Shown one piece after another: positions 14,573 to 33,558 of a stretch of DNA of 37,316 nucleotides (position 1 is its first letter; every line of letters starts with the position of its first letter). The translations under genes were made by a program, and so were the position numbers. The notes beneath the pieces were generated by a model. The model saw nothing but the letters and a program-made list of their open reading frames with translations, was not told where the DNA came from and ran no database searches. The DNA is taken from the NCBI GenBank assembly GCA_031179215.1, contig JAPSIA010000015.1, forward strand, positions 1 to 37,316, given 5' to 3'. This stretch comes from Agrococcus sp. GTDB lineage: Bacteria; Actinomycetota; Actinomycetes; Actinomycetales; Microbacteriaceae.

Positions 14573-15370
14573 TCAGTACGAGTCGGTCGGCCCCTGCGGC
14601 TGCTTGAGCCGCGCGACCGCGGCCTCCGAGCCGCGCGCCATGAGCGTCACATCGGCCGCGACGAAGACGAACGCGGCACCGCGAGCGATGCAGCGGTCGG
14701 CGTCGGCGGCCGCGAACGCGTTCACGCCGACGGGCTTGCCTGCCGCGCGCACCGCGTCGATCGTCGCGTCGACCGCCTGCACGACCGCCGGCTCCGACGG
14801 CCGCCCGGGGTGGCCGAGCGATCCCGCGAGGTCGGCAGGGCCGATGAAGACCGCGTCCACCCCGTCGACCGCGGCGATCTCGGCGGCGTTCGCCGCCGCC
14901 TCTGCCGTCTCGATCTGCACCGTGACCGACACGTGCCGGTCGGCCTCGCCGACGTAGCCCGCGATGCGCCCCCACCGCGACGAGCGCGCGAGCGCGGAGC
15001 CGATGCCGCGCGTGCCCTCCCGCTCGCCGGGCGCGCCGGGGTAGCGCGCGGCGCGCACGGCGGCGCTGGCCTCCTCGGCGGTCGAGACCATGGGCACGAG
15101 CAGGTTCTCGGCGCCGAGGTCGAGCACCTGCTTGATGACGACGGGGTCGTTCCACGGCACCCGCACGATCGTCGTGACGGGGTACGCGGCCGCGGCCTGC
15201 AGGATCGGCAGCATCTCCGAGATCGAGATGGGCCCGTGCTCGCCGTCGACGAGCAGCAGGTCGGCGCCGGAGCCGGCCATGATCTCGGCGGCGAGGGCGC
15301 TGCCGGAGGCGTTCCACAGGCCCACGAGCGGAGCCTGCGCGGCGGCGAGCGCTTCGCGGAAGGTGCTCAT
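14573..15370 (-). CDS. hpaI: 4-hydroxy-2-oxoheptanedioate aldolase
   Basis: 265 residues of the HpcH/HpaI class II aldolase family. It cleaves 4-hydroxy-2-oxoheptane-1,7-dioate to pyruvate and succinic semialdehyde, the last step of homoprotocatechuate meta-cleavage. Diagnostic stretches are GLWNASGSALAAEIMAGSGA, LLLVDGEHGPISI, the metal-binding Glu in VTVQIETAEA, and FIGPADLAGSLG. The ATG at 15370 overlaps the hpaH stop (ATGA), so it is the last gene of the hpa operon. It converges with the small gene ending at 14566, six bases away. Assignment to HpaI rather than another pyruvate aldolase rests on the operon. Confidence 0.92.
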   Translation of the reverse strand: MSTFREALAAAQAPLVGLWNASGSALAAEIMAGSGADLLLVDGEHGPISISEMLPILQAAAAYPVTTIVRVPWNDPVVIKQVLDLGAENLLVPMVSTAEEASAAVRAARYPGAPGEREGTRGIGSALARSSRWGRIAGYVGEADRHVSVTVQIETAEAAANAAEIAAVDGVDAVFIGPADLAGSLGHPGRPSEPAVVQAVDATIDAVRAAGKPVGVNAFAAADADRCIARGAAFVFVAADVTLMARGSEAAVARLKQPQGPTDSY

Positions 15371-16191
15371 CGGAACGTCACCTCGACCGCTCCGAGCCCC
15401 TCGTACTCGGCGCGCACGACGTCGCCGGGCCGCACCCAGACGGGCCGCGTGAAGGAGCCCGCGAGCACGAGCTCCCCGGCCTCGAGCCGGTCGCCGTGCT
15501 GCGCGAGCTTGCCTGCGAGCCACGCGACCCCGAGCGCGGGGTTGCCGAGCACGCCGCCCGAGACGCCCGTCTCGATGATCTCGTCGTTCACGAGGCACAG
15601 GGCCCCCACCCACGACAGGTCGCGGTCGCGCGGCCCGATCTCGTCCTCGCCGACCACGACGGCGCCGAGCGCAGCGTTGTCGCTGATGGTGTCGACGATC
15701 GTGCGGCCCTCGAGCTCGATGTGCGAGTCGAGGATCTCGAGCGCCGGCACCACGGCCTCGGTCGCGTCGAGCACCTCGTCGACCGTGAGGCCCTCGCCCT
15801 CGAGCGGCGCCGAGAGCACGAACGCGAGCTCGACCTCGACGCGCACGTTCGACCACTGCGCATGCTCGAGCGTCTCGCCCGAGCGGTGCGTCTGGTCGGC
15901 GAAGATGACGCCGTAGTCGGGCTCGGTGATGCCGGTCGCGAGCTGCATCGCCTTGCTCGTGAGGCCGATCTTGCGGCCGACCAGGCGCGCGCCGGCCTGC
16001 TCGCGGCGCGCACGCCACACGCGCTGCACCGCGTAGGAGTCCTCGATCGTCGCCTCGGGGAAGCGGGTCGAGATGCGCTCGATCGTGCCGCGCGAGCGCG
16101 TGGCCTCCGCGAGCTCGTCGGCGATGCGCGTCACGGTCGCGTCGTCGAGGCCGCGTCCCCGCCCGGGGCCGGGGGTCACCGCGGTCGTCAC
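15367..16191 (-). CDS. hpaH: 2-oxo-hept-4-ene-1,7-dioate hydratase
   Basis: 274 residues of the FAH-like hydratase family (HpaH/MhpD/XylJ). It adds water to the 2-oxo-heptene-dioate intermediate, making the HpaI substrate. Typical stretches are YAVQRVWRARREQAGARLVG, RKIGLTSKAMQ followed by EPDYGVIFAD, VEVELAFVL (metal-binding Glu residues) and ALEILDSHI. The GTG at 16191 overlaps the hpaD stop (GTGA), and its own stop overlaps the hpaI start. Length is normal for HpaH. Confidence 0.93.
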   Translation of the reverse strand: MTTAVTPGPGRGRGLDDATVTRIADELAEATRSRGTIERISTRFPEATIEDSYAVQRVWRARREQAGARLVGRKIGLTSKAMQLATGITEPDYGVIFADQTHRSGETLEHAQWSNVRVEVELAFVLSAPLEGEGLTVDEVLDATEAVVPALEILDSHIELEGRTIVDTISDNAALGAVVVGEDEIGPRDRDLSWVGALCLVNDEIIETGVSGGVLGNPALGVAWLAGKLAQHGDRLEAGELVLAGSFTRPVWVRPGDVVRAEYEGLGAVEVTFR

Positions 16192-17282
16192 AGCTGGGTG
16201 CCGATCTTGAACCCCTTCGACGCCTCGCCGCGGTAGGTGCCGTCGTCGTCGCCGACGCGCGTGTACGAGAACCCGTCGGCGCCGATCGTCACCTCCATCT
16301 CGCTCGAGTCGGTGCGCTCGACGACCTCCACCACGTTGCCGTCGAGGTCGAGCACGGGCGAGGCCTCCGTGTACCAGGAGGGCACCACGGGGTTGCCCCA
16401 CCAGTCGCGGCGCTGGTTGTCGTGCACGTCCCACGTGACGACGGGGTTGTCGGGGTCACCGGTCCAGTAGTCCTGCGTGTAGATCTCCACGCGGTGGCCG
16501 TCGGGGTCGGTGATGTAGAGGTAGAACGCGTTCGAGACGCCGTGACGGCCCGGGCCGCGCTCGATGTGGTCCGACATCCGGAGCGCGCCGAGCTTGTCGC
16601 AGATCTGGATGATGTTGTGCTTCTCGTGCGTCGAGAAGGCGATGTGGTGCATGCGCGGTCCGTTGCCGCCCGTGAGCGCCGTGTCGTGCACGGTGCCCTT
16701 GCGCTGCATCCACGCGGCGTACGTGACGCCCTGGTCGTCCTGGATGTCCTCGGTGACGCGGAAGCCGAGGTCCTCGAGGTACTTGCGACCGCGCGGCACG
16801 TCGGGCGTGACCTGGTTGAAGTGGTCGAGCCGCACGAGCTCGCCCGCCGAGATCAGGTCGTAGCGCTGGTGCAGCCGCTCCGCGTGCTCGGTGGCGTAGA
16901 AGAACTCGTAGGGGAAGCCCAGTGGGTCCTCCACCCGCACGCTGTCGCCGAAGCCCTTCTGGAAGCCGTCTGCGCGGCGCTCGGTGCGGCAGCCGAGCTC
17001 CCGGTAGTACGCCTCGGCCCGGTCGACGTCCTCCGGGGTGCGCACGCGGTACGCGAAGGCGGCGACGGCCGCGACCGGACCCTTGCGCAGCACGAGGTTG
17101 TGGTGGATGAACTCCTCGAACGACCGCAGGTAGATCGCCTCGTCGTCCTCCTCGGTCACGTGCAGCCCGAGCACGTCGACGTAGAAGGCGCGGCTGGCGG
17201 CCAGGTCGGTCACGACCAGGTCCATCGCCGCGCAGCGGATGATGTCGGGCGCGGGGACGCTGGGCTTGGGGATCGCAGTCAT
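16188..17282 (-). CDS. hpaD: Homoprotocatechuate 2,3-dioxygenase (extradiol)
   Basis: 364 residues. It opens the ring of 3,4-dihydroxyphenylacetate to 5-carboxymethyl-2-hydroxymuconate semialdehyde. It belongs to the vicinal oxygen chelate type I extradiol enzymes and closely follows the Brevibacterium fuscum enzyme. The metal ligands correspond to H154, H213 and E266 (155, 214 and 267 there). The second-sphere residues also match with the same one-residue offset: N156, H199 and Y256. The start is the ATG at 17282 with AAGGAG six bases upstream. It lies 23 bases behind hpaE and overlaps hpaH. All catalytic residues are intact, so it should be active with Fe(II) or Mn(II). Confidence 0.96.
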   Translation of the reverse strand: MTAIPKPSVPAPDIIRCAAMDLVVTDLAASRAFYVDVLGLHVTEEDDEAIYLRSFEEFIHHNLVLRKGPVAAVAAFAYRVRTPEDVDRAEAYYRELGCRTERRADGFQKGFGDSVRVEDPLGFPYEFFYATEHAERLHQRYDLISAGELVRLDHFNQVTPDVPRGRKYLEDLGFRVTEDIQDDQGVTYAAWMQRKGTVHDTALTGGNGPRMHHIAFSTHEKHNIIQICDKLGALRMSDHIERGPGRHGVSNAFYLYITDPDGHRVEIYTQDYWTGDPDNPVVTWDVHDNQRRDWWGNPVVPSWYTEASPVLDLDGNVVEVVERTDSSEMEVTIGADGFSYTRVGDDDGTYRGEASKGFKIGTQL

Positions 17283-17305: not shown

Positions 17306-18799
17306 TCAGGCGGATGCGCCGAACCGGGCGGTGTGGACGTCGCCGAGCGTGATGTGCACGGCCTGCTGGTCGCTGTAGAAGTCGAGCGAGCGGTAGCCGC
17401 CCTCGTGGCCGAGGCCGGAGGCCTTGACGCCGCCGAAGGGGCTGCGGAGGTCGCGCACGTTGTGGCTGTTGAGCCACACCATGCCCGCCTCGACGCTCTG
17501 CGCGAAGAGGTGGGCGCGCTTGAGGTCGCGCGTCCAGATGTAGGCCGCGAGGCCGTAGCGGGTGTCGTTCGCGAGCTCGAGCGCCTGCTCGTCGGAGTCG
17601 AACGGCGTGATCGAGACGACCGGGCCGAAGATCTCCTCCTGGAAGATGCGGGCGTCGGGGGCGACGTCGGCGAACACGGTCGGTGCGACGAAGTTGCCCT
17701 CCGGGAAGGCCTCTGGGCGTCCGCCGCCGGCGAGCAGGCGGCCCTCCTGCTTGCCGATCTCGACGTACGACATGACCTTCTCGAAGTGCTCGGGGTGCAC
17801 GAGCGCTCCCACCTCGGTCTTCGGGTCGTGCGGGTCGCCGACGACGATGCGCTTGGCGCGCTCGGCGTAGCGCTCGAGGAACTCGTCGTAGATCGAGCGC
17901 TCGACGAGGATGCGGCTGCCGGCGGTGCAGCGCTCGCCGTTGAGGGAGAAGACGCCGAAGAGCGTCGAGTCGATCGCCGCGTCGAGGTCGGCGTCGGCGA
18001 AGACGACCGCGGGCGACTTCCCGCCGAGCTCCATCGAGAGCGCCTTCAGGTGCGGCGCCGCATTGGCGAAGATCAGCTGGCCCGTGCGGCTCTCGCCCGT
18101 GAACGAGATGAGCGGCACGCCGGGGTGCTTCACGAGCGCGTCGCCCGCGGTCTCGCCGAAGCCGTTGACGAGGTTGAACACGCCCTTGGGCAGCTCGGCC
18201 TCCTCGAAGATGCCGGCCCACAGCGATGCCGACAGCGGCGTGAACTCGGCGGGCTTCAGCACGACCGTGCAGCCGGAGGCGAGCGCGGGGCCGAGCTTCC
18301 ACGACTCGAGCATGAAGGGGGTGTTCCACGGCGTGATGAGGCCGGCGACGCCCTTGGGCTTGCGGTTGACGTAGTTGAGCTGGCTGCCGGGCACCTGGTA
18401 GGTGTCGTCGCGGCCGGCGACGATGAGGTCGGCGAAGAAGCGGAAGTTCTCGGCCGCGCGCTGCGCCTGCCCCTTCGCCTGCGTGATCGGCAGTCCGGAG
18501 TCCCACGACTCGAACTCCGCGAGCTCGGCGTCGCGGGACTCGACGATGTCGGCGATGCGGGAGAGGATGCGCGCGCGCTCGCGGTTCTTCATGCGCGGCC
18601 ACGGGCCCTCCTCGAACGCGCGCGTCGCCGCGGCGACAGCGAGGTCGATGTCGGCCTGCTTGCCGGAGGCCGCGACGGTGTAGTCCTCGTTCGTCACGGG
18701 GTTGAGCACGCCGAACGTCTCGCCGTCGATCGACGGCACGCGCTCGCCGTCGATGTAGTGCGGGATGAGCTCGGGGATGCCTTCGGGCCGGTTCGCCAT
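17306..18799 (-). CDS. hpaE: 5-carboxymethyl-2-hydroxymuconate semialdehyde dehydrogenase
   Basis: 497 residues of the NAD-dependent aldehyde dehydrogenase superfamily. It oxidises the HpaD product to the muconate. Visible are GVAGLITPWNTPFMLESWKL, the catalytic Glu in SMELGGKSPAVV, the nucleophilic Cys in NGERCTAGSRILVE, and IFGPVVSITPF near the C-terminus. The N-terminus PELIPHYIDGERVPS and C-terminus GGYRSLDFYSDQQAVHI are characteristic of HpaE/BetB-like enzymes; position beside hpaD decides the call. The ATG at 18799 has GAAGGAG upstream. The gene is 56 bases behind gntR in the same operon. Confidence 0.94.
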   Translation of the reverse strand: MANRPEGIPELIPHYIDGERVPSIDGETFGVLNPVTNEDYTVAASGKQADIDLAVAAATRAFEEGPWPRMKNRERARILSRIADIVESRDAELAEFESWDSGLPITQAKGQAQRAAENFRFFADLIVAGRDDTYQVPGSQLNYVNRKPKGVAGLITPWNTPFMLESWKLGPALASGCTVVLKPAEFTPLSASLWAGIFEEAELPKGVFNLVNGFGETAGDALVKHPGVPLISFTGESRTGQLIFANAAPHLKALSMELGGKSPAVVFADADLDAAIDSTLFGVFSLNGERCTAGSRILVERSIYDEFLERYAERAKRIVVGDPHDPKTEVGALVHPEHFEKVMSYVEIGKQEGRLLAGGGRPEAFPEGNFVAPTVFADVAPDARIFQEEIFGPVVSITPFDSDEQALELANDTRYGLAAYIWTRDLKRAHLFAQSVEAGMVWLNSHNVRDLRSPFGGVKASGLGHEGGYRSLDFYSDQQAVHITLGDVHTARFGASA

Positions 18800-18855: not shown

Positions 18856-19554
18856 TCAGTGGTCGCTCGGGTGGATGCGCTGGAGGTACGCGTCGGGCGT
18901 CGCGAGCCGGTGCGCCCGCACCGCGAGCTCGATGCGGCGGGGGTCGGCGCCGTCCTCGATGAGGCCGAGGATCGCCTCGTGCTCGTCGACGGAGGCGAGC
19001 GCGCGGTTCGGCACGAACGAGAACGTCGACTGGCGCAGCCGCGCGAGGCGCTTCCAGCACGTGTCGATGACGTCGCCGATGACCGCGTTGGGCGAGACGT
19101 CGGTGAGTCGCCGGTGGAACGCCTCGTTGAGCGAGGTGAACTGCACGGGGTCGAACGCCGCGAGCGAGGCGCGCATCCGCTCGTTGATGGCGCGCGCCTC
19201 GTCGACGTCGCGCTTGGAGTAGAGGCCGGCCGCGAGCGAGACCGCGGCGCCCTCGACGAAGGAGAGCGTCTCCATCGTGTCGTGGTACTGCAGCTCGTCG
19301 ATCTCGGCGACGCGAGCGCCGATGTTGCGCTCGAAGGTCACGAGGCCCTCGGCCTCGAGCCGCCGGATCGCCTCCCGCACGGGCACGACGCTCATGTCGA
19401 GCTCGCGGCCGATCGCGTCGAGCACGAGCCGGTAGCCGGGCGAGTAGGTGCCGTCGACGATGCGGTCGTGCAGCAGCTCGTACGCGCGCTGGGACTTCGA
19501 GGGGGCGGCGGTGGAGCCCCCCTCGGCGTCGGCTCGCGCGCGCCGCTCGCTCAC
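18856..19554 (-). CDS. GntR-family (FCD) transcriptional regulator of the hpa cluster
   Basis: 232 residues. The N-terminal winged helix (RAYELLHDRIVDGTYSPGYR, then VVPVREAIRRLEAEGLV) is followed by an all-helical FCD ligand-binding domain with conserved His residues in NEAFHRRLTD and SVDEHEAILGLI. FCD domains bind carboxylic acids, often through a metal. The GTG at 19554 overlaps the stop of the FAH-RraA gene (GTGA), so it is inside the hpa operon. GntR/FCD operators typically contain TNGTATACNA-like cores, and such a site (ATCGTATACGAT, 21069-21080) lies directly before the operon. It is therefore the likely repressor of hpa and of the divergent transporter. Confidence 0.9.
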   Translation of the reverse strand: MSERRARADAEGGSTAAPSKSQRAYELLHDRIVDGTYSPGYRLVLDAIGRELDMSVVPVREAIRRLEAEGLVTFERNIGARVAEIDELQYHDTMETLSFVEGAAVSLAAGLYSKRDVDEARAINERMRASLAAFDPVQFTSLNEAFHRRLTDVSPNAVIGDVIDTCWKRLARLRQSTFSFVPNRALASVDEHEAILGLIEDGADPRRIELAVRAHRLATPDAYLQRIHPSDH

Positions 19555-21062
19555 GAGCGACCCTCCGCCGACTCCGCTTCGTACTTCGCGCGCCACTGGG
19601 CGTTCATGGGGAACAGGCCGTCGACGGGGTGGCCGGCCTCGACCTGCCGGCCGATCCACTCCTCCTCCGCCTCCTGCGCGAGCGCTTCCTCGACGAGCTC
19701 GCGCGCGAGCGCCGGGGGGATCACGAGCACGCCGTCGCCGTCGCCGACGATGATGTCGCCGGGCTGCACGGTCGCGCCGCCGCACGCGATCGTCTCGTCG
19801 AACGACCACGGCACGTGGAGGCGGCCGAGCACGGCCGGGTGGCCGCCCGCGTGGTAGGTCGGCACGCCGATCTCGGTGACCACGTCGAGGTCGCGCACGC
19901 CGCCGTCGGTCACGATGCCGGTCGCGCCGAGGTGGCGCGCTCGCAGCGCGAGGATGTCGCCGAGCGTGCCGGAGCGGTTGTCGCCGCGCGCCTCGATCAC
20001 GACGACCTCGCCCGGCCGCAGCGAGTCGAACAGCCGCTTCTGCGCGTTGTAGCCGCCGCCGTGGGCCTTGAACAGGTCCTCGCGATTGGGCACGTAGCGC
20101 AGCGTGCGAGCGGTGCCGACCATGCGCGCGCCTGGCTGCGTCGAGCGGAGGCCGTCGATCGAGACGTTGTTGAGGCCGCGCTTGCGCAGCCCGGAGGAGA
20201 GCGTCGCGAGCGCGACGCGCGAGAGCTTGTCGCGCAGCTCGTCGTCGAGCGCGGGCGCGGTGGGCTCTTGGAACTCGGCGATCGGGCGGCCGGATGCATC
20301 CGCCCACTGCTCGGGGGTGGGCTTCGGCTGCGCGGAGTACGCCGGCAGCTGCTGCTCGCCGATGCGCACCGTCGAGGCGAGCCTGCCGGTCGAGAGCCGC
20401 TCGCCGTCGAGCGCTGTCGCTGCGACCTCGACCTCGACCGTCTGGCCGGGGGAGAAGGTGGAGGCGTTCGCGGGCGTGCCGGTGAGGATGACGTCGCCCG
20501 GCTCGAGGGTGATGAGCTGCGAGAGGTCGCTGACGATCTGCGGCAGCGAGAAGATGAGCGTCGCCGTCGAGTCCTCCTGCACGAGCTCCCCGTCGAGCCA
20601 CGTGCGCACCTCGATCCCGTGCGGGTCGAGCCGCGCCGCGTCGAGCAGCGATGGCCCGATGGGCGTGCAGCCGTCGCCGCCCTTCGAGCGGAGGTTCGAG
20701 CCCTTGTCGGCCCAGCGCAGGTCGAACACGCCGAGGTCGTTGGAGGCCGTGACCGCCGCGACGTGCGACCACGCATCCGCCTCGTCGACGGCTCGGGCGA
20801 GCCTGCCGATCACGATCGCGATCTCGCCCTCGAAGCCGAAGATCTCGGTGCCCGCGGGCATCACGAGCTCGCCGCCGGTCGAGAGGGAGGTCGCGGGCTT
20901 CAGGAAGTAGCCGGGAGCCTCGGGCGTGCGGCCCTTCTGCTCGGCGCGCGCCCGGTATCCGATGTGCATCGCGAAGACCTTCGCGGGCCTGCGACCGAGC
21001 AGGCTCCAGGCGTCCGCTGCTGCAGTGGGGGCCTCTGCCGAGGGCTGCGCCGATGCATCCAT
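19551..21062 (-). CDS. Fusion of FAH-family enzyme (HpaG-like) and RraA/HMG-aldolase-like domain
   Basis: 503 residues. About residues 25-270 form a fumarylacetoacetate-hydrolase-fold domain: KPATSLSTGG, the metal-binding FEGEIAIVIGR, DLRWADKGSNLRSKGGDG and the ILTGTPAN motif. About 310-480 are an RraA-like domain with TGIVTDGGVRDLDVVTEIG and PGDIIVGDGDGVLVIP. This keeps the Asp/Arg-Asp signature of class II pyruvate aldolases/oxaloacetate decarboxylases of that fold, so the domain is probably enzymatic rather than an RNase E inhibitor. In E. coli HpaG two FAH-type domains do decarboxylation and isomerisation; here the second is replaced. The start is the ATG at 21062; TACGAT six bases before it suggests a leaderless message. 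First gene of the hpa operon. Confidence 0.87.
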   Translation of the reverse strand: MDASAQPSAEAPTAAADAWSLLGRRPAKVFAMHIGYRARAEQKGRTPEAPGYFLKPATSLSTGGELVMPAGTEIFGFEGEIAIVIGRLARAVDEADAWSHVAAVTASNDLGVFDLRWADKGSNLRSKGGDGCTPIGPSLLDAARLDPHGIEVRTWLDGELVQEDSTATLIFSLPQIVSDLSQLITLEPGDVILTGTPANASTFSPGQTVEVEVAATALDGERLSTGRLASTVRIGEQQLPAYSAQPKPTPEQWADASGRPIAEFQEPTAPALDDELRDKLSRVALATLSSGLRKRGLNNVSIDGLRSTQPGARMVGTARTLRYVPNREDLFKAHGGGYNAQKRLFDSLRPGEVVVIEARGDNRSGTLGDILALRARHLGATGIVTDGGVRDLDVVTEIGVPTYHAGGHPAVLGRLHVPWSFDETIACGGATVQPGDIIVGDGDGVLVIPPALARELVEEALAQEAEEEWIGRQVEAGHPVDGLFPMNAQWRAKYEAESAEGRS

Positions 21063-21068
21063 GCGGGC

Positions 21069-21080
21069 ATCGTATACGAT
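21069..21080. promoter_or_regulatory. GntR/FCD-type operator before the hpa operon
   Basis: ATCGTATACGAT is a perfect 12-bp palindrome seven bases from the first ATG of the hpa operon. It overlaps a TATACG/TACGAT -10 box on the minus strand, with a possible -35 box TTGCGG 16 bases before that. The core fits FCD-GntR operators. Confidence 0.7.
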
Positions 21081-21138
21081 CTCAGATCCGGTCCGCAAGC
21101 GACGGCGGGAGCGCTCGCCCACGCCTGACCGGCGGGCC

Positions 21139-21167
21139 TTGCTGTCGTGCACGAAATCGTATATCTT
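21139..21167 (+). promoter_or_regulatory. Promoter of the transporter with second GntR-like site
   Basis: TTGCTG (21139-21144) and TATCTT (21162-21167) are 17 bases apart. Overlapping the -10 box is ATCGTATATCTT (21156-21167), which shares its first eight bases with the perfect palindrome at 21069-21080. One regulator could thus silence both divergent promoters. Confidence 0.55.
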
Positions 21168-21220
21168 TCCGTCAGTCCACGGCGCTCGTCCCGGGCGCCC
21201 CATCTGACAAAGGAGTCAGC

Positions 21221-22633
21221 GTGTCCCACAGCACGACGTCTCGCACTTCCGCTCGGGAGCGCAACAAGGTCTTGGCCGCGGTCGTCGTCGGCACCACCAT
21301 CGAGTGGTACGACTTCTTCATCTACGCGTTCATGGCCAACCTGGTCTTCGCGGCGCTCTTCTTCGAGCCTGCCGGCCCCGGCCTCGCCCAGATCCTCTCG
21401 CTCGTGACGATCGGCATCTCGTTCCTCTTCCGTCCGCTCGGCGCGTTCCTCGCCGGCCACTTCGGCGACAAGCTCGGGCGCCGGCCGATGCTCGTGCTCA
21501 CGCTCCTGCTCATGGGTGGCGCGACGACGCTCGTCGGCGCGCTGCCGACCTATGAGCAGATCGGCGTCCTCGCGCCGATCCTCCTCATGCTCCTGCGCAT
21601 CCTGCAAGGCCTCTCTGCCGGCGGCGAGTGGGGTGGCGCCGTCCTCATGGCGATCGAGCACGCGCCCGCGAACCGCCGCGGGCTCTACGGCTCCTTCGTG
21701 CAGGCAGGCGTGCCGCTCGGCATGATGCTCGCGACCGGCGTCCTCGCCGGCGTCCGCGCGCTCTTCCCGGGCGACGCCTTCCTCGAGGTCGGCTGGCGCA
21801 TCCCGTTCTTCGTCTCGATCCTGCTCGTCGTGGTGGGCTACGTCGTGCGCCGCTCGGTCGACGAGTCGCCGGTCTTCCAGGAGATCAAGCAGACGGCCCA
21901 GCAGGAGTCGGCGCCCATCATGCAGGTCGTCCGCAAGTACGGCGGCGTCGTGCTGCTGTGCGCGATGGTCTTCATCGCGAACAACGCGACGGGCTACATG
22001 ACGACGGGCGGCTACGTGCAGGGCCTCGCCTCGCGGCCGGTCGACGCGACCCCGCCGGGGCTCGGGTTCGACCCGGTCGGCGTGCAGCTCGCGACCTTCG
22101 CGGGCTCCGTCTCGTGGCTCGTGTTCACGTTCCTCGCCGGCTGGCTCTCGGACCGCATCGGCCGCAAGCCGCTGTACCTCATCGGCTGGGTCACGCTCGC
22201 GATCGGCATCGTGCCGCTGTTCGTGCTCGTGGAGCAGGGCGTCGGCGGCGTCGCGTGGGCGACGATCCTGCTCGGTGCGGGCCTCGGCCTCACGTACGGC
22301 GCGCAGGCCGCGTGGTACGCGGAGTCGTTCCCCGCATCCGTGCGCTACTCGGGCGTCTCGATCGCGTACGCGATCGGCGCGGTGTTCGGCGGCGCCTTCG
22401 CCCCGACGATCGCGCAGGCGCTCCTGCAGGCGACGGGCTCCACGTGGTCGATCGTCGGCTACCTGCTCGCGACGGTCGTCGTCTCGGTCATCGGCACGCT
22501 GCTGCTGCGCGACCGCACGGGTGTGCCGCTCTCGATCGAGTCGGAGCACTCTGGCCGCTGGGAGACGTGGAAGAAGGGCGACGCGGGCGACGAGGTCTCC
22601 TCGAGCGACCACGCCGCGCCTGCCTCGCGCTGA
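21221..22633 (+). CDS. MHS-type major facilitator (aromatic acid/metabolite symporter)
   Basis: 470 residues, about 12 transmembrane helices. The MHS (metabolite:H+ symporter, ShiA/ProP-like) signature is clear: VVVGTTIEWYDFFIYAFMANL in helix 1, the loop motif GHFGDKLGRRPML, RILQGLSAGGEWGGAVLMAIEH, and a second GWLSDRIGRKPLYL in the C-terminal half. The GTG at 21221 is preceded by AAAGGAG five bases away. It is divergent from the hpa operon across a 158-base region with shared GntR-like sites. It is thus the probable importer of the hpa substrate, for example a hydroxy- or methoxy-phenylacetate (inference). It is not the HpaX subfamily known from E. coli. Confidence 0.9.
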   Translation: MSHSTTSRTSARERNKVLAAVVVGTTIEWYDFFIYAFMANLVFAALFFEPAGPGLAQILSLVTIGISFLFRPLGAFLAGHFGDKLGRRPMLVLTLLLMGGATTLVGALPTYEQIGVLAPILLMLLRILQGLSAGGEWGGAVLMAIEHAPANRRGLYGSFVQAGVPLGMMLATGVLAGVRALFPGDAFLEVGWRIPFFVSILLVVVGYVVRRSVDESPVFQEIKQTAQQESAPIMQVVRKYGGVVLLCAMVFIANNATGYMTTGGYVQGLASRPVDATPPGLGFDPVGVQLATFAGSVSWLVFTFLAGWLSDRIGRKPLYLIGWVTLAIGIVPLFVLVEQGVGGVAWATILLGAGLGLTYGAQAAWYAESFPASVRYSGVSIAYAIGAVFGGAFAPTIAQALLQATGSTWSIVGYLLATVVVSVIGTLLLRDRTGVPLSIESEHSGRWETWKKGDAGDEVSSSDHAAPASR

Positions 22634-22681: not shown

Positions 22682-23083
22682 CTACTCGGCCTCGACGACG
22701 GGGTCGTCGAGCGGTGTGCCGCGCGAGTACGGCCCGAAGAAGAGATCGGCGCCCGCCTCGGTGAGGGCGGTGCCCGAAGCGCGAGTGCCGTCGAACGCGG
22801 CGATCGTCGCGAAGGGCAGCCGCTCGGAGGGATCGTCGGGGTCGGCGATCTCGAGCAGCCAGCCGCTCGGCGCCTCGACGAGGGCGGGGTCGGCGATCAC
22901 GATGCGCAGCATGCCGCCGTGCGCGGTGAGGGTGACGGTGCCGCGGAACGATCGCGCGTCGCCGGGGAAGCGGACGGCACCCTCGATCGCGGTCGCTCCT
23001 CCCGAGAGCTCGACCGTGCCGCCGCCGCGGCCGCGCACGTAGTCGAGCAGCGAGGCCTTGACGCCCCACACGAGCGCGCTCAC
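22682..23083 (-). CDS. Stand-alone HtaA-domain protein without signal peptide
   Basis: 133 residues with one HtaA domain: LVWGVKASLLDYVRGRGGG at the start (family W..K.SF..Y), then AVRFPGDARSFRGTVTLTAH, MLRIVIADPALVE and SGWLLEIAD. HtaA domains bind haem in corynebacterial cell-surface proteins, where several copies, a signal peptide and an anchor are usual. Here one domain makes up the whole protein and no export signal is visible, so it should be cytoplasmic. I prefer the GTG at 23083 (GTGA overlap with the lysR stop, GGGAG just upstream); a GTG at 23098 is possible. Coupled to a LysR regulator and near a P450 fusion; its role is unknown. Confidence 0.7.
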   Translation of the reverse strand: MSALVWGVKASLLDYVRGRGGGTVELSGGATAIEGAVRFPGDARSFRGTVTLTAHGGMLRIVIADPALVEAPSGWLLEIADPDDPSERLPFATIAAFDGTRASGTALTEAGADLFFGPYSRGTPLDDPVVEAE

Positions 23084-24003
23084 CGCGCTCCCGGCCACGG
23101 GAGCGCCCGCGCGAAGTCGATGAGCGCGCGCGTGCGCGCCGTCGGTGCAGGCCGAGCCGGCCAGATGACGTCGACCCCGACGGGCGGCACTGCGGGCGCG
23201 ATCTCGAGCATGGCGACAGGGTAGCCCTCGTAGCTCGCCGCGTTCGCGGGCCGCTGCACGAGGATCCCGTAGCCGAGCCCGCGACCGACGAGCGCTCGCA
23301 CGGCCTCGTAGCTCTGCACGCGGTGCCGCACGCGCGGGGTGACGCCCGCTGCGGCGAACAGCGACAGCGTGTGCTGGCTCGAGGGCGGCGCGTCGAGCAG
23401 GATCAGGTCGCGATCGGCGAGCTCCGCGAGGTCCACGGTGCCGCGCCGCGCGAGCGGGTCGTCACCCGCGACGACGACGTGCGCCGGCAGGGCGAACAGC
23501 GTCGCGCGCTGCGGCTCGCCGGGCACGAGCGTGTCGTAGACGAAGGCCACGTCGACTTGCCCGGACTCGAGCCTGCCCTCGAGCCGATCGTGCGTCGCCT
23601 CGACGATGTCGAGCTCGACCCGGGGATGCTCCCTGCCGAAGCCGGCGAGCAGCGGCGGCAGGATCGTGGGCGCGAGCGTCGGGTAGCAGCCGATGGTGAT
23701 GGGACCGAGGAGCTCTCCCGGTGCACCGCGCAGCGAGGCCTCGAGCTCGCGCGACGAGGCGAGCAGCGCTCGCGCGCGAGCGACGACATCCGCCCCGGTG
23801 CTCGTGAGCGTGAGCCCGCGCGCCCTGCGGCGCACGGTGAGCTGCGCCGAGAGCTCGCGCTCGAGCTCGCTGATCGCCTCGGAGACCGCTGAGGGCGAGA
23901 CGTGGAGGCGGGCCGCCGCGGCCGCGATCGTGCCCTCGTCGGCAGCGCAGACGAGGTAGGAGAGCTGGCGCAGCGAGAAGGGAGGCGCGTCGAGAGGGTC
24001 CAT
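23080..24003 (-). CDS. LysR-family transcriptional regulator
   Basis: 307 residues. The N-terminal winged helix is typical: FSLRQLSYLVCAADEGTIAA, then AAARLHVSPSAVSEAISELE and TLTSTGADVVARARALL. The type 2 periplasmic-binding-like effector domain follows (ITIGCYPTLAPTILPPLLAG, GRLESGQVDVAFVYD, VQSYEAVRALVGRGLGYGIL). The ATG at 24003 is divergent from the P450 fusion gene with 98 bases between the starts, the classic LysR arrangement. It probably activates that gene in response to an aromatic or similar substrate. The HtaA gene overlaps its stop and is probably co-transcribed. Confidence 0.92.
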   Translation of the reverse strand: MDPLDAPPFSLRQLSYLVCAADEGTIAAAAARLHVSPSAVSEAISELERELSAQLTVRRRARGLTLTSTGADVVARARALLASSRELEASLRGAPGELLGPITIGCYPTLAPTILPPLLAGFGREHPRVELDIVEATHDRLEGRLESGQVDVAFVYDTLVPGEPQRATLFALPAHVVVAGDDPLARRGTVDLAELADRDLILLDAPPSSQHTLSLFAAAGVTPRVRHRVQSYEAVRALVGRGLGYGILVQRPANAASYEGYPVAMLEIAPAVPPVGVDVIWPARPAPTARTRALIDFARALPWPGAR

Positions 24004-24101
24004 TGTGCGGCTGCTCCGAGTTTGATCGTTCGTTGAATCCGCTTTTCCCACACTAACTCGCGGTGCAGGATCGAGGGAGGCCGACCACGAGGATGTGCGA
24101 G
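24004..24101. promoter_or_regulatory. Divergent control region of lysR and the P450 fusion
   Basis: 98 bases with a distinctly AT-richer core (about 24020-24058, including TTTGATCGTTCGTTGAATCC). A loose dyad GAT-N10-ATC at about 24023-24038 could be a LysR contact site. I cannot assign the -10 and -35 boxes with confidence. GAGGGAGG at 24072-24080 and GAGG at 24089-24092 are ribosome-binding stretches for the P450 gene. Confidence 0.4.
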
Positions 24102-27095
24102 ATGTCGAGCAACGCTGCTCCCGTCGCCGATTGGGTGACGATCCCGGATCTCTACAGCGATCCCTTCCCGATCTACGAGCGCCTGCGCGCCGAGGGCGGC
24201 GTGCACTGGGTGCCGCAGGTGAACCGCTACCTCGTGACCTCGTACGAGGCGGTGCACGCGACCGAGCTCGACCAGGAGACGTTCTCGGCGAACGAGCAGG
24301 GCTCGCTGCAGATCCGCGCGATGGGGCACTCGATGCTGCGTCGCGACGACCCCGAGCACTACCTCGAGCGCAAGGCATGGCAGCCGTCGCTCCGGCCGGG
24401 GGTCGTGCAGCGCCACTGGCGGTCGATGTTCGAGCGCACCGCCGAGCAGCTCCTCGACGAGATGACCGCGAAGGGCTCCGCGGCAGATCTCATCTGGGAC
24501 TTCGCGGCCCCCTACGCCGCCGAGTGCCTGCGGCAGATCCTCGGCCTGCACAACGTCTCGCAGCAGGATCTCCAGCGCTGGTCGCAGACGCTCATCGACG
24601 CGACCGGCAACTACGCCGACGACCCCGAGGTGTGGGCACTCGGCAAGCGCTCGTTCGACGAGGTGGACATCGCGCTCGACGAGATGCTGCCGTGGCACGC
24701 GCAGCACCCGAACGAGTCGCTCCTGTCGCAGCTGCTGCGCATCCCCGACTACGAGATGCCGATCGAGCGCATCCGCGCCAACGTGAAGATGACGATCGGC
24801 GGCGGGCTCAACGAGCCGCGCGACGCGCTCGGCGTCGCGGCGTGGGCGCTCCTGTCGCATCCGGAGCAGCGCCGCGCGGTCGAGGCCGATCCGAGCCTGT
24901 GGCACGCGGCCTTCGACGAGACGCTGCGATGGATCGCGCCGATCGGCCTCTACTCGCGCCAGGTCACGCGCGACACCGAGCTCGCGGGCGTCGCGCTGCC
25001 GGCCGGCGCACGGCTCGGGATCTGCATCCTCTCCGCGAATCGCGACGAGCGCGTGTGGCCCGACGCCGACCGCTTCGACATCCGGCGCGAGGTCAAGCCG
25101 CACCTCGCCTTCAGCAAGGGCGTGCACGTGTGCCTCGGCGCGTGGGTCGCGCGCTCGGAGGTCGCCGACGTCGCGCTGCCCAAGCTGTTCGAGCGGCTGC
25201 GCGGGCTCGAGCTCGTGCCCGAGGATCCGGCACGGGTCGGCGGATGGGTCTTCCGCGGCATGCTGAGCCTGCCGGTGCGCTGGTCGTCGGTGTCGTCGGA
25301 CGCCTCGCGCGCGCCCGGCGAGGCCGCACCGGCGGAGCCGGCGCCCGCGCCGCGCATCGCGATCGTGGGAGCCGGTCCCGCGGGCTGCTTCACGGCGCAG
25401 GCGCTGCGCCGCCGGTTCCCCGAGGCCGATCTCGACGTCATCGATGCGCTGCCGGTGCCCTACGGCCTCGTCCGCTCAGGCGTGGCCGCCGACCACTCCG
25501 GCACGAAGGCGGTCACCCGGCAGTTCGACCGCCTGTTCCTGCACGAGCGCGTGCGCTTCCGCGGCAACACGCGCGTCGGCCTCCCCGGCCGCGGGGGCGA
25601 CGTGTCGCTCGAGGAGCTGCGCGCCGCCTTCGACGCGGTCGTGCTCGCGACAGGGCTGCGCGCCGATCGCTCGCTCGACGTGCCCGGCCGCTCCCTCGAG
25701 GGAGTGCACGGTGCCGGGCGCATCACGCGACTGCTCAACGGGCATCCCGACGAGGGTGCGGCGCCGTCGCTCGGCGAGGCGACGGTCGTCGTGGGCCACG
25801 GCAACGTCGCGATGGACGTCGTGCGGCTGCTCGCCCGCGATCCCGAGGAGCTCGAGGGCACCGACGTCGACGACGAAGCGCGGGACCGGCTCGCCGGCAG
25901 CTTGCGCACGATCCACGTCGCGGGCCGGAGCGCGCCGACGGCGGCGCGCTTCGATCCGGTGATGGTGCGCGAGCTCGCGGGTCTGCGCGGAGTCGTGCAC
26001 CGCGTGCACGGTGCCGCGCTCGAGTGCATCGAGCCCGGGAAGGACGCGAGGGCCGACGCGGTGCGCGGGCTTGAGGCGGCGCGCGACGGCGCCTCGACGG
26101 CCGAGGCGGCGCGCGTCGAGGTGCACTGGTGGTTCGGGCTCGCGCCTGCGCGCATCGAGGGCGCGGGTCGCGTCGAGCGCGTCGTCTTCGACGGCGCGGA
26201 CGGCGAGCTGGCGCTCGCGGCCGATTCCGTCGTGACCGCGACCGGCTTCGCCGCGGATGCGGAGGCGCTCACCGAGCCCGGCGCGCATCCGGACGGCCGA
26301 GTGGAGCCGGGCCTGTACACCGCGGGATGGCTGCGGCGGGGCCCCCGCGGCACGATCCCCGACCAGCGGCTCGACGCTCGCGAGCTCGCGCGCACGATCG
26401 CCGACGACCTCGCGTCCGGCGGGATCGCGGTCGGCGCGCCGGGGCTTCCCGAGCGCGCCGATGAGGTCGCCTTCGAGGGCTGGCGGCGCATCGATGTCCG
26501 CGAGCAGCTCGGCGCCGCGCCGGGACGCACGCGCGCGAAGCTGCGCTCGGTGCGCGAGCTGCTCGATGCGGCGCGCGACGCGTCGATCCCGTTGCCGGAG
26601 ATCGCGGCCGAGGCGGATGCCGTCGAGGGGTCCGGCCTGCCCGTGACCGTGCTGTTCGGCACCGAGTCGGGCGGCGCCGAGCTCGTCGCCGACGAGCTGC
26701 GCCGGACGCTCGCGCCGCGCGCCGAGGTCGAGGTGCGCGACCTCGCGGAGATCGCGCCGAGCGAGCTCTCGCGGGAGCGGCTGCACCTGCTCGTGTGCTC
26801 GACGTACGGGGACGGGGAGGTGCCGACCGCCGCGCGCGCCTTCCACCGTGCGCTCGTGGAGGCGCGGCCCGACCTCACGGGAGTGCGCTACGCCGTGTTC
26901 GGCATGGGCGATCGCAGCTACACGAAGACGTACTCGCGCGGCAGCGAGCTCATCGACGAGGCGCTCGCAGGCTGCGGCGCGGAGCGCGTGGGGGAGTACG
27001 GCCGCCACGACGCGAGCGGACCCGCACCCGCGACGGATGTCGCGGTCGAATGGGCCGAGGGCGTGCTCGCGGAGGCGACCGCCCGCGTCGCCTGA
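24102..27095 (+). CDS. Self-contained cytochrome P450 fused to FprA/adrenodoxin-reductase-like and flavodoxin domains
   Basis: 997 residues in one uninterrupted frame. Residues about 1-395 are a P450: I-helix GGGLNEPRD (233-241, no usual Thr), ExxR (E273-R276) and haem loop FSKGVHVCLG with Cys344. After an Ala/Pro/Glu linker (about 396-417), 418 to about 820 are an NADPH/FAD reductase like FprA/adrenodoxin reductase: FAD motif AIVGAGPAG (420-428), VPYGLVRSGVAADH, NADP motif GHGNVAMD (565-572), GWLRRGPRGTIP. Residues 846-997 are a flavodoxin-like FMN domain: FGTESGG (852-858), STYGDGE (900-906), FGMGDRSY (933-940). Expected electron path: NADPH, FAD, FMN, haem. The P450 part resembles GcoA (CYP255A, aromatic O-demethylase). 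ATG 24102 has GAGG nine bases upstream; starts at 24093 or 24063 are possible. Probably LysR-controlled. Confidence 0.93.
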   Translation: MSSNAAPVADWVTIPDLYSDPFPIYERLRAEGGVHWVPQVNRYLVTSYEAVHATELDQETFSANEQGSLQIRAMGHSMLRRDDPEHYLERKAWQPSLRPGVVQRHWRSMFERTAEQLLDEMTAKGSAADLIWDFAAPYAAECLRQILGLHNVSQQDLQRWSQTLIDATGNYADDPEVWALGKRSFDEVDIALDEMLPWHAQHPNESLLSQLLRIPDYEMPIERIRANVKMTIGGGLNEPRDALGVAAWALLSHPEQRRAVEADPSLWHAAFDETLRWIAPIGLYSRQVTRDTELAGVALPAGARLGICILSANRDERVWPDADRFDIRREVKPHLAFSKGVHVCLGAWVARSEVADVALPKLFERLRGLELVPEDPARVGGWVFRGMLSLPVRWSSVSSDASRAPGEAAPAEPAPAPRIAIVGAGPAGCFTAQALRRRFPEADLDVIDALPVPYGLVRSGVAADHSGTKAVTRQFDRLFLHERVRFRGNTRVGLPGRGGDVSLEELRAAFDAVVLATGLRADRSLDVPGRSLEGVHGAGRITRLLNGHPDEGAAPSLGEATVVVGHGNVAMDVVRLLARDPEELEGTDVDDEARDRLAGSLRTIHVAGRSAPTAARFDPVMVRELAGLRGVVHRVHGAALECIEPGKDARADAVRGLEAARDGASTAEAARVEVHWWFGLAPARIEGAGRVERVVFDGADGELALAADSVVTATGFAADAEALTEPGAHPDGRVEPGLYTAGWLRRGPRGTIPDQRLDARELARTIADDLASGGIAVGAPGLPERADEVAFEGWRRIDVREQLGAAPGRTRAKLRSVRELLDAARDASIPLPEIAAEADAVEGSGLPVTVLFGTESGGAELVADELRRTLAPRAEVEVRDLAEIAPSELSRERLHLLVCSTYGDGEVPTAARAFHRALVEARPDLTGVRYAVFGMGDRSYTKTYSRGSELIDEALAGCGAERVGEYGRHDASGPAPATDVAVEWAEGVLAEATARVA

Positions 27096-31031: not shown

Positions 31032-32435
31032 ATGGAGACCTACGAGAGCCTGCTGGCGGCCGTGACCGTCGAGGAGGGCACGCCCGTCATCGACCCGGCG
31101 ACAGGCGAAGCCTTCGCCCACGCGCCCCGCGCGAGCGTCGACGACCTCGAGCGCGCGATCGCGACGGCGACCGCGGCGCAGCCGGCCTGGGCGGCGCTGA
31201 GCGACGACGAGCGCCGCGCCGCGCTGGCAGCCGCCGCCGACGAGGTGGAGGCGAGCGCCGAGGCGCTCGCCCAGCTCATCGCGCGAGAGCAGGGCAAGCC
31301 GCTCAGCGGCCCGGGCGCGCGCTTCGAGGCGGGTGCCGTCGTCGCGTGGCTGCGCGCGACGATCGCGACCGAGCTCGAGCCCGAGGTCGTCGTCGACGAC
31401 GGCCAGGCGAAGGCGACCGTCTACTACCGGCCGATCGGGCTCGTCGGCGCCATCGGCCCGTGGAACTGGCCCGCCATGATCGCGACGTGGCAGTTCGCGC
31501 CGGCGCTGCGCATGGGGAATGCGGTCGTGATGAAGCCGAGCGAGTACACGCCGCTCAGCGTGCTCGCGACCGCGCACCTCGTGAACCGGCACCTGCCCGA
31601 GGGCCTGTTCACGGTGCTCGCCGGCGACCGCGACCTGGGGGAGGCGATCGGCAGCCACCCGGCCTTCGGCAAGGTCACGTTCACGGGATCCGCCCGCACC
31701 GGCCGCGCGATCATGCGCGCGTCCGCCGACAACCTCACGCGGCTCACGCTCGAGCTCGGCGGGAACGACCCCGGCATCGTGCTCCCCGACGTCGACCCCA
31801 AGACGATCGCCGAGGGCCTGTTCTGGGGCGCCTTCATCAACACGGGACAGACGTGCGCGGCGCTCAAGCGCCTGTACGTGCACGACGATGTCTACGACGA
31901 CGTCGTGCGCGAGCTCTCGGCGGTCGCGGCGGCGATGCCCATGGGTCCCGGCAGCGACGAGCAGAACGTGCTCGGACCGCTCACGACCGAGCAGCAGTTC
32001 GACGTCGTCGACCGGCTCGTGGAGGACGCGAAGGCGCGCGGCGGGCGCATCGTGCTCGGCGGCGAGCCCGATCGCGACGCGGCGGGGTGGTTCTACCCGG
32101 CGACGCTCGTCGAGGGCCTCGACGACGACGCCGCCCTCGTCCGCGAGGAGCAGTTCGGGCCGGCGCTGCCGATCCTGCGGTACTCCGACGTCGACGACGC
32201 GATCGAGCGCGCGAACCGCGGCGAGGCGGGCCTCGGCGCGAGCGTCTGGTCCTCCGACCCCGAGCGCGCTCGCGCGGTCGCTGCGCGCATCCAGGCCGGG
32301 TCCGTGTGGATCAACTCGCACGGCACCATCCACCCCATGGCGCCCTTCGGCGGCGTCAAGGGGTCCGGCTACGGCCTCGAGTTCGGCGTCGAGGGCCTCA
32401 AGGCGATGGCGGTGCCGCAGGTCATCCACGGCTGA
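31032..32435 (+). CDS. NAD(P)-dependent aldehyde dehydrogenase
   Basis: 467 residues of the aldehyde dehydrogenase superfamily. Visible are GAIGPWNWPAMIATW, KPSEYTPLSVL, the catalytic Glu in LTLELGGNDPGIVL, the nucleophile Cys275 in NTGQTCAALK, and EEQFGPALPILRY. Length is slightly short for the superfamily but complete. It is encoded 30 bases after the GMC gene with GAAGAGGGACC before the ATG, so the pair should form alcohol-to-acid chemistry. The substrate is not readable from the sequence. A strong hairpin ends the operon. Confidence 0.92.
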   Translation: METYESLLAAVTVEEGTPVIDPATGEAFAHAPRASVDDLERAIATATAAQPAWAALSDDERRAALAAAADEVEASAEALAQLIAREQGKPLSGPGARFEAGAVVAWLRATIATELEPEVVVDDGQAKATVYYRPIGLVGAIGPWNWPAMIATWQFAPALRMGNAVVMKPSEYTPLSVLATAHLVNRHLPEGLFTVLAGDRDLGEAIGSHPAFGKVTFTGSARTGRAIMRASADNLTRLTLELGGNDPGIVLPDVDPKTIAEGLFWGAFINTGQTCAALKRLYVHDDVYDDVVRELSAVAAAMPMGPGSDEQNVLGPLTTEQQFDVVDRLVEDAKARGGRIVLGGEPDRDAAGWFYPATLVEGLDDDAALVREEQFGPALPILRYSDVDDAIERANRGEAGLGASVWSSDPERARAVAARIQAGSVWINSHGTIHPMAPFGGVKGSGYGLEFGVEGLKAMAVPQVIHG

Positions 32436-32568: not shown

Positions 32569-33558
32569 TCAGCCTGCCGGTGCCCGCTCCTCGCGCGCCA
32601 GCGCGGGCTCGAGCGCGGTCGCGGCACGGTACTCGGACGGGCTCTGGTCGAAGGTCGCGCGGAAGAGCCGCGAGAAGTGCGCGGGGTTCACGAGCCCCCA
32701 GCGCGCGGCGATGCGAGCGATCGGCACCGCCGCGAGCTCGCCGTCCGCGAGGTCGCGGCGGATGTGCTCGAGGCGGCGCTCGCGGATCCAGCCCGCGACC
32801 GTGATGCCGTGCTCGGCGAAGACGGCGTGCAGGTGGCGGGTCGAGATGAAGTGAGCGGCGGCGATCTGCGCGGGCGAGAGCTCCGGGTCGTCGAGCAGGC
32901 GATCGATCGTGCCGAGGACCTCGTGCAGCAGCTGCCGCCTGGGGTCACGGCGGATGCCGTCCTTCAGATGCGTGCGGATGAGCGTCATCAGCAGGTCCAG
33001 CCCGGTGCGAGCCAGGCGCTGGCCGTGCCCGGCAGGCAGCTCGCCCAGGCTCTGCGCGAGCCCGACGAGGAACGGGTTGACGACGCGGCCGAGCGGGGAC
33101 TCGAGGGGGAACGCCGTCGCGGTGACGGCCGCCAGCTCCTCCCGCGGGATGTCGAGGTAGCCGTGCGGGAAGGTCAGCACCACGAGGCTCGTCTCGCCGT
33201 CGAAGCGCAGCGTGTACGGGCGCGAGGTGTCGTAGATCGCGAGATCGCCCGCGTGGAGGAGCGCGACGCGGCCGTCCTGCTCGATGAGCTCCTCGCCGGA
33301 GAGCTGCAGGCTCACCTTGATGAGGTCGGTCGCGCCGCGGCTGACGAGCGCTGGGGTGCGGGCGACGATGCTCGCCGAGTGCTCGATGCGGAACACCGAC
33401 ACCGCGCCGACGTCGACGCGGCCGACCCGCGCGCGGAACGGCGCATCGCCGAGCGGATGCACGTCGAGCGGCACGAAGCTCTCGGAGACGTCCCGTCGCC
33501 ACTGCACGATGTCGACGAAGGGCGCCTCGAGCGGCGGGAAGTCGAAGATGTCGGCCAA
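32569..33558 (-). CDS. AraC-family regulator with NphR/FeaR-like sensor domain
   Basis: 329 residues. About 10-195 are an AraC-binding-like sensor domain (VSLQLSGEELIEQDGRVALL, then DTSRPYTLRFDGE), as in NphR and FeaR, regulators of nitrophenol and phenylethylamine/tyramine use. About 215-320 are the AraC/XylS double helix-turn-helix (ISTRHLHAVFAEHGITVAGW, then IARIAARWGLVNPAHFSRLF and DQSPSEYR). The start is TTG at 33558, supported by a strong AGGAGG five bases upstream. It is convergent with the GMC/ALDH operon and probably activates it; an aromatic or amine-derived effector is inferred from the sensor type. Confidence 0.88.
   Translation of the reverse strand: MADIFDFPPLEAPFVDIVQWRRDVSESFVPLDVHPLGDAPFRARVGRVDVGAVSVFRIEHSASIVARTPALVSRGATDLIKVSLQLSGEELIEQDGRVALLHAGDLAIYDTSRPYTLRFDGETSLVVLTFPHGYLDIPREELAAVTATAFPLESPLGRVVNPFLVGLAQSLGELPAGHGQRLARTGLDLLMTLIRTHLKDGIRRDPRRQLLHEVLGTIDRLLDDPELSPAQIAAAHFISTRHLHAVFAEHGITVAGWIRERRLEHIRRDLADGELAAVPIARIAARWGLVNPAHFSRLFRATFDQSPSEYRAATALEPALAREERAPAG

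Follow-up and report, generated by a model that had tools for sequence, protein, structure and literature searches.

A cytochrome P450 joined to an adrenodoxin reductase-type domain and a flavodoxin domain in Agrococcus and other bacteria: a candidate self-sufficient O-demethylase family

Introduction

The subject of this report is a 997-residue protein encoded at positions 24102..27095 (+ strand) of a 37,316-nucleotide stretch of Agrococcus sp. DNA (contig JAPSIA010000015.1; hereafter the window), in which a cytochrome P450 (P450) is fused to a reductase domain of the adrenodoxin reductase (AdR)/FprA type, predicted to carry flavin adenine dinucleotide (FAD), and to a C-terminal predicted flavodoxin domain that would carry flavin mononucleotide (FMN). 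Two classes of self-sufficient P450 are named in PMC7260179, and a ferredoxin-FAD-P450 fusion is added as a further self-sufficient type in PMC9687028 (these articles and PMC8081977 are cited throughout for the parts of them that were available). CYP102A1 (P450BM3) resembles the fusion in having a haem domain followed by a two-flavin reductase, with electrons passing from reduced nicotinamide adenine dinucleotide phosphate (NADPH) to FAD, FMN and haem. However, its reductase is of the cytochrome P450 reductase (CPR) type, in which the flavodoxin domain precedes the FAD/NADPH domain (PMC7260179), and is a member of the FNR family (PMC9687028), whereas in the fusion the FAD domain precedes the FMN domain and belongs to the AdR/FprA (glutathione reductase) family. 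CYP116B enzymes are likewise single chains with a C-terminal electron-carrier domain, but employ an FMN reductase domain and a 2Fe-2S ferredoxin (PMC7260179); the fusion gave no Pfam match to a phthalate-dioxygenase-type reductase or a 2Fe-2S ferredoxin (seven families, at E up to 1). The self-sufficient P450 of Paraburkholderia terrae KU-64 (cyclohexanecarboxylate) is another natural single chain with redox modules; however, its 2Fe-2S ferredoxin and FAD domains are N-terminal and its P450 C-terminal, and the available text mentions no flavodoxin (PMC9687028). The P450cin/cindoxin system shares the succession of FAD reductase, flavodoxin-like FMN protein and P450, but as three separate proteins (PMC9687028).

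The three module types of the fusion also occur in XplA/XplB, the RDX-degrading P450 system. At the loci of Gordonia KTR9 and Rhodococcus erythropolis R138, which we take to be XplA/XplB or XplA/XplB-like (their records annotate only a P450 and an FAD-dependent oxidoreductase), flavodoxin and P450 form one chain and the reductase is a separate gene. Identity to the fusion is 43% for the KTR9 reductase, 41% for the KTR9 flavodoxin and 25-26% for the P450s of the two loci. XplA carries its flavodoxin at the N-terminus (PMC8081977), unlike the fusion. By layout, the fusion is neither a CYP102, a CYP116B nor an XplA/XplB system.

The P450 domain itself is 61.2% identical over 389 residues to CYP1232A24 of Arthrobacter sp. 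(PDB 6g71); the solved chain, however, is a P450 of 405 residues, with its partners described as separate components. Klenk et al. (2019), whose title names a papaverine pathway, proposed a cluster of two Arthrobacter P450s with flavodoxin and flavodoxin reductase partners (PMC9687028), and the same source states that nobody has yet reported direct evidence for the products of a bacterial flavodoxin reductase-flavodoxin fusion. A P450-AdR-flavodoxin single chain was not described in the open-access full text that we searched (subscription literature, e.g., the CYP1232A24 paper, lay outside the search).

The fusion protein and its domains

Translation of the frame from 24102 to 27095 gave a single, terminal stop (alternative in-frame starts are ATG at 24093 and GTG at 24063), and Pfam, NCBIfam and PDB-sequence searches placed its domains as follows.

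24102..27095, + strand: P450-AdR/FprA-flavodoxin fusion, 997 residues (translation, Pfam, PDB-sequence matches, alignment)
24129..25289, + strand: P450 domain, residues 10-396, CYP1232A24-like, haem Cys344, I-helix GGGLNEPRD (PDB-sequence and fold matches)
25290..25346, + strand: linker 1, residues 397-415, Ala/Pro-rich, weakly conserved, low model confidence
25347..26591, + strand: FAD/NAD(P)H reductase domain, adrenodoxin reductase/FprA fold, residues 416-830 (Pfam, PDB-sequence and fold matches)
26592..26642, + strand: linker 2, residues 831-847
26643..27059, + strand: predicted flavodoxin (FMN) domain, short-chain, residues 848-986 (by sequence)

Three separate Pfam families matched over cut-off: p450 (residues 268-362, 67.6 bits), Pyr_redox_2 (418-576, 40.6 bits) and Flavodoxin_1 (850-974, 79.5 bits). 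The PDB-sequence search matched 6g71 to residues 6-396 (551.6 bits) and the reductase part to adrenodoxin reductase 1cjc (two stretches, the best at 416-631) and to FprA 1lqt (419-821). The characteristic motifs lie at ExxR 273-276 and Cys344 in the P450, AIVGAGPAG 420-428 and GHGNVAMD 565-572 in the reductase, and FGTESGG 852-858, STYGDGE 900-906 and FGMGDRSY 933-940 in the flavodoxin. In an alignment of 52 rows (the window and 51 of the 61 fused loci introduced below) the invariant residues included E273, R276 and C344 of the P450, G423, G425, G428, G565, G567, N568 and D572 of the reductase, and E855, S856, G857, Y902, G905, G936, D937 and Y940 of the flavodoxin.

These results confirm what the original prediction had observed in the letters alone, namely one intact frame with a P450, a reductase of AdR/FprA rather than CPR or phthalate-dioxygenase type and a C-terminal flavodoxin, its motif positions included. 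It had described the layout as distinct from that of XplA/XplB and as one it did not recognise, and both statements held in the comparisons and the literature search given above. Judged by its composition, the frame holds the full set of modules from NAD(P)H to haem, as expected of a self-sufficient P450.

The AlphaFold2 model of the fusion had a mean predicted local distance difference test score of 84.5 and a predicted template modelling score of 0.61, with low confidence in the linkers and in residues 333-343, which precede the haem Cys. As modelled, the domains appear credible and their mutual placement is not fixed. Foldseek on this model ranked 6g71 first and FprA/adrenodoxin reductase next, followed by two O-demethylases, GcoA and SyoA; CYP199A2/A4 came further down, as did other P450s. 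The I-helix motif GGGLNEPRD is present in all 61 fused rows and is identical in 6g71, while SyoA reads GGLQEP there. P450s sharing more than 55% identity with a named subfamily member are placed in the same subfamily; at 61.2% identity to 6g71 the P450 domain exceeds that threshold, and we call it CYP1232-like.

Distribution of the fusion and selection on its domains

The architecture is conserved in related genomes, as the original prediction had proposed to check. Among 149 genomes, the window's own included, the full fusion is present in one frame in 20 and frame-broken in one more (G023), so that 20 of 21 copies are open from end to end. A scan of named genomes, a set overlapping in species with the 149, retained 76 loci: 61, in 20 named genera and rows without a genus name, encode P450, FAD and FMN domains in that order in one frame, 11 encode the P450 alone, and the remaining four are frame-broken (L103, L108 and L113) or run off the contig (L099). 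The interrupted copies L103, L108, L113 and that of G023 (L042) could be pseudogenes or sequencing errors. Because the scan used six exact peptide patterns from the window protein, it favours close relatives. The fused loci fall in Actinomycetota and Gammaproteobacteria (Microbacteriaceae 28, Micrococcaceae 13, Brevibacteriaceae 9, Halomonadaceae 7, others 4). Of 396 genomes sampled evenly across the order, 10 had the fusion and, at the limit used, three more the P450 alone; within Agrococcus, 17 of 24 genomes carry the fusion, 16 of them in one frame.

Ratios of nonsynonymous to synonymous substitution (dN/dS, by the method of Nei and Gojobori, NG86) against seven Agrococcus orthologues were 0.23-0.31 for the P450, 0.24-0.37 for the FAD domain and 0.21-0.34 for the FMN domain, and all three domains are under purifying selection. 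The linkers gave 0.63-1.32 and 0.28-0.92, mostly above the domain values.

The six peptide patterns had no match in the viral contigs. Among plasmid records 1316 matched, all below 60% identity; in nine, 80% of the query was covered at a single place, and the four of these that were inspected (H1, H3, H4 and H9) have the modules split over at least two genes. A search for permuted fusions matched one of 394 genomes at class level under a strict limit, the window's own, and 23 of 299 at family level at E 1e-55, with whole-length coverage in one frame only in G075. This genome (L048:6778-9747, minus strand), from the same family of bacteria, encodes a permuted FAD-FMN-P450 fusion in one 989-residue frame with a different P450; in G030 (L049) the same three genes are separate in the same order, with a P450 67% identical. 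A CYP1232-like P450 match (53%) at G837:C62:87099-88289 (L179) lies within a 1799-residue open frame.

Origin of the fusion

Partners were examined for 16 unfused relatives, and in every one of them genes for a 2Fe-2S ferredoxin and an FAD reductase adjoin the P450. This set comprised the 11 P450-only named loci and five plasmid matches among the 20 P450-only rows listed (H21-H40); the P450-only matches G771, G900, G937 and G837 were left out, and the reductase match of L123 was in two pieces. No ferredoxin was matched at E 1e-5 in the fetched flanks of the fused loci (0/61). Because every unfused relative in the set carries a ferredoxin and a reductase, the fusion seems to have replaced iron-sulphur partners.

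A quick P450-domain tree of 78 rows, in which long branches met among the plasmid outgroups, placed the 62 fused rows on one side of a single branch (Shimodaira-Hasegawa-like approximate likelihood ratio test, 99). Gammaproteobacteria were nested among Actinomycetota, which suggests that the fusion moved between phyla as a whole. A careful tree of 43 rows (27 of the 61 fused loci, the window and 14 of 16 class I rows) again recovered a single fused group (100/99), with CYP1232A24 inside it on a long unresolved branch. Quick trees were also made for the reductase and the flavodoxin (32 of the 61 fused rows, the window and 20 others; L141 has no row, and L048, labelled unfused there, is the permuted fusion), and in the flavodoxin tree the fused rows formed one group (98). 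The broken or cut copies L099, L103, L108 and L113 were excluded from the trees.

Reductase-flavodoxin pairs also exist as separate genes beside other P450s; for instance, in R. pyridinivorans P23 each of the three modules has its own gene. The gene order there is that of the domains in the fusion, the first two genes overlap, and the P450 is only 24% identical. Enterobacterial plasmids (L130 and matches H4-H8; Enterobacter and Klebsiella) encode a reductase, a flavodoxin and a P450 of this partner type, as separate genes in the one inspected, L130. On two alphaproteobacterial plasmids (L127 and L128) a reductase-flavodoxin pair, 45% identical to the window module, belongs to a catabolic operon, and the stretches fetched carry no annotated P450. 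Most simply, a class I P450 would have shed its iron-sulphur partners and been fused, on one occasion, with a reductase-flavodoxin pair like those encoded separately beside other P450s. We consider it reasonably likely that the family represents a third self-sufficient class, in which evolution built a two-flavin reductase for the second time, out of a bacterial AdR-type flavoprotein and a flavodoxin instead of the CPR lineage; this reductase would have replaced the class I set in one fusion, which then spread between phyla.

Gene neighbourhood

By their family matches, the genes to the left of the fusion form a homoprotocatechuate (3,4-dihydroxyphenylacetate) meta-cleavage (hpa) set. The neighbouring genes, including members of the major facilitator superfamily (MFS) and several regulator families, are as follows.

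14573..15370, - strand: HpaI-like aldolase, start approximate (best match, 274.3 bits, below the cut-off of 368.8)
15367..16160, - strand: HpaH-like hydratase, start approximate (best match, 294.5 bits, below the cut-off of 351.5)
16359..17246, - strand: HpaD, 3,4-dihydroxyphenylacetate 2,3-dioxygenase, extent that of the family match (over the NCBIfam cut-off)
17306..18780, - strand: HpaE, 5-carboxymethyl-2-hydroxymuconate semialdehyde dehydrogenase, start approximate (NCBIfam, 654.7 bits, cut-off 638.35)
18856..19500, - strand: GntR/FCD regulator, start approximate
19551..21203, - strand: fumarylacetoacetate hydrolase (FAH)-RraA protein (PRK12764 over cut-off)
21053..22633, + strand: MFS transporter
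22682..23098, - strand: protein with a single HtaA domain and no obvious signal peptide
23080..24003, - strand: LysR-type regulator, divergent from the fusion
31032..32435, + strand: aldehyde dehydrogenase (no NCBIfam model over cut-off)
32569..33558, - strand: FeaR-like AraC regulator (134 bits, below the cut-off of 199)

The FAH-RraA protein would have an HpaG-like role in the meta pathway. The FeaR-like regulator and the aldehyde dehydrogenase lie about 4-6 kb to the right of the fusion, and the latter might perhaps serve an arylacetaldehyde step. Of the 61 fused loci, 51 have a LysR match no more than 3.5 kb away and 37 have an HtaA match within that distance, the HtaA gene lying directly upstream and in the same direction in several Micrococcaceae rows. 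HtaA is a haem-binding domain, and our guess is that the protein could supply or sense haem for the P450.

The hpa set adjoins the fusion in 14 of the 17 fusion-bearing Agrococcus genomes (the exceptions being G008, G021 and G023) and in 20 of the 61 fused named loci, in both phyla (Agrococcus 7, Microbacterium 4, Subtercola 1, Micrococcales without genus 1, Gammaproteobacteria 7). Its placement varies: in Agrococcus it lies to the left of the fusion and in L056 to the right, and L085 and L100 are mixed. The halomonad hpa genes are 30-53% identical to those of the window. Because the arrangements differ and the halomonad identities are this low, it is likely that the linkage evolved repeatedly or that its retention is not accidental. 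The cluster of Halomonas sp. EAR18 contains, with the hpa genes, a CHMI/HpaF protein, a phenol-hydroxylase-like monooxygenase, parts of a tripartite ATP-independent periplasmic (TRAP) transporter, a phenylacetaldehyde-dehydrogenase-like protein (below cut-off) and FeaR (over cut-off).

Proposed function and alternative explanations

The domains, their order, the intact frame, its conservation, the selection on it, the gene context and the relation to CYP1232A24 and to class I relatives were all established by computation, and from them we infer cofactors, electron route, substrate and regulation. We propose, with a probability of roughly 0.7, that the fusion is a natural self-sufficient O-demethylase of methoxylated phenylacetates. 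A flexible linker would connect a CYP1232-type haem domain with a module of two flavins composed of the AdR/FprA-type FAD domain and the flavodoxin. The types of the modules point to a route in which NAD(P)H would reduce FAD, FAD would hand single electrons to FMN, and FMN would reduce the haem, within one chain or between the chains of a dimer. The most likely reaction of the haem domain would be O-demethylation of homovanillate-type or 3,4-dimethoxyphenylacetate-type acids. The product, 3,4-dihydroxyphenylacetate, would then be cleaved and degraded by the adjacent HpaD-HpaE-FAH-HpaH-HpaI set, and the divergent LysR regulator probably controls the fusion gene. It is the hpa context and the relationship to CYP1232A24 that point to this reaction, the latter enzyme reportedly demethylating dimethoxyphenylacetate.

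HpaD was matched over cut-off in 23 of the 24 Agrococcus genomes, against 17 with the fusion, and since HpaD is near-universal in the genus and the fusion is not, the latter fits an accessory entry step. The window's own genome has an HpaB_N-family gene elsewhere, which makes a role of the fusion as 4-hydroxyphenylacetate hydroxylase less likely. Given that HpaD outnumbers the fusion and that the HpaB_N gene is present, we favour an upper funnel step over that role.

The interpretation offered by the original prediction is partly supported, two of its points not being borne out. It had named NADPH as the electron donor. In AdR/FprA enzymes an Arg-Arg pair binds the NADPH 2'-phosphate. The window reductase has the fold and the GxGxxG and GxGNxAxD motifs of this family without that pair: it reads R609-S610 at the expected position (GRSAP, against GRRGP in the FprA paralogue of its own genome, L136), both residues being invariant in the 52-row alignment. 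The GRS pattern matched 57 of the 61 fused rows (the other four being unmatched by the pattern), and the Arg-Arg pair occurred in none of 20 other flavodoxin-paired reductases compared. Because the usual Arg-Arg reads Arg-Ser, NADPH appears doubtful as the donor, and NADH is given for XplB assays in a review table (PMC8081977). The FMN domain had also been thought to have to swing back to the P450, which the domain order does not force; for P450BM3, a homodimer has been proposed as the working form, with electrons moving both inside a chain and from one chain to the other (PMC7260179).

Several observations count against the proposal. No flavodoxin was among the top 50 Foldseek matches listed for the model, and the FMN domain consequently rests on sequence. 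In the reductase tree two unfused reductases (G614 and G545), each near a distant P450 of 24-26% identity, sit inside the fused clade, which could reflect either two separate gains or a reductase that was set free later. The I-helix motif has no canonical acid-Thr pair, and membership of the HpaB_N family does not prove 4-hydroxyphenylacetate hydroxylase activity. Lastly, hpa linkage was not found within the fetched flank of 41 of the 61 fused loci, among them all 12 Leucobacter and all nine Brevibacterium rows, whose fusions adjoin an MFS transporter or other genes; because of this, substrates may vary. These unlinked loci are what would be expected if the enzyme were self-sufficient and its reaction something other than phenylacetate demethylation, such as hydroxylation or demethylation of another methoxyaromatic, with the linkage in Agrococcus, Microbacterium and halomonads reflecting one part of the family. 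We regard this as possible, though the less probable explanation, as linkage to hpa genes is seen repeatedly, in both phyla and in varying gene orders, O-demethylases are the structures that the haem domain matches best, and GGGLNEPRD is retained in every fused row.

The lack of the acid-Thr pair, which is reported for XplA also (PMC8081977), together with the shared module types and the similarity of the flavin modules to those of KTR9, could alternatively indicate a reductive, XplA-like enzyme whose flavin module would power the reduction of a xenobiotic without oxygen. We think this very unlikely, as the P450 is far closer to CYP1232A24 (61%) than to the two flavodoxin-P450 proteins found (25-26%) and the hpa context requires an oxygenated product. 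Scarcely more probable is that the main clients of the C-terminal flavodoxin are other P450s, served in trans, and not its own haem domain. In Arthrobacter terricola (L084:6730-11969) the fusion is immediately preceded by genes for a second P450, a free flavodoxin and an HtaA protein, their open frames overlapping, and since the second P450 and free flavodoxin adjoin the fusion there, modules may be shared; however, the three modules are kept in one chain in 61 loci, and the window's own genome (88% complete) has one other PF00067 match (two in all). As for an assembly or frame artefact joining three neighbouring genes, the few broken or contig-edge copies (L103, L108, L113, L099 and G023) are outweighed by frames open throughout at 61 of 76 named loci and in 20 of 21 copies among the 149 genomes, and by purifying selection domain by domain, and we reject it as refuted. 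These explanations overlap with each other and with the preferred one, self-sufficient O-demethylation of methoxylated phenylacetates, and the probabilities we attach to them do not sum to one.

Significance

The family looks like a module with an AdR-type rather than an FNR-type reductase attached to a P450, and has a fair chance of deserving a class of its own among self-sufficient P450s. It makes the order of domains, the choice of FAD fold and the replacement of iron-sulphur by flavin testable against P450BM3 and CYP116B. The fusion probably demethylates plant-type aromatic acids and could serve as a ready-made biocatalyst, the 61 natural sequences offering a start on candidate single-chain O-demethylases for lignin-type aromatics.

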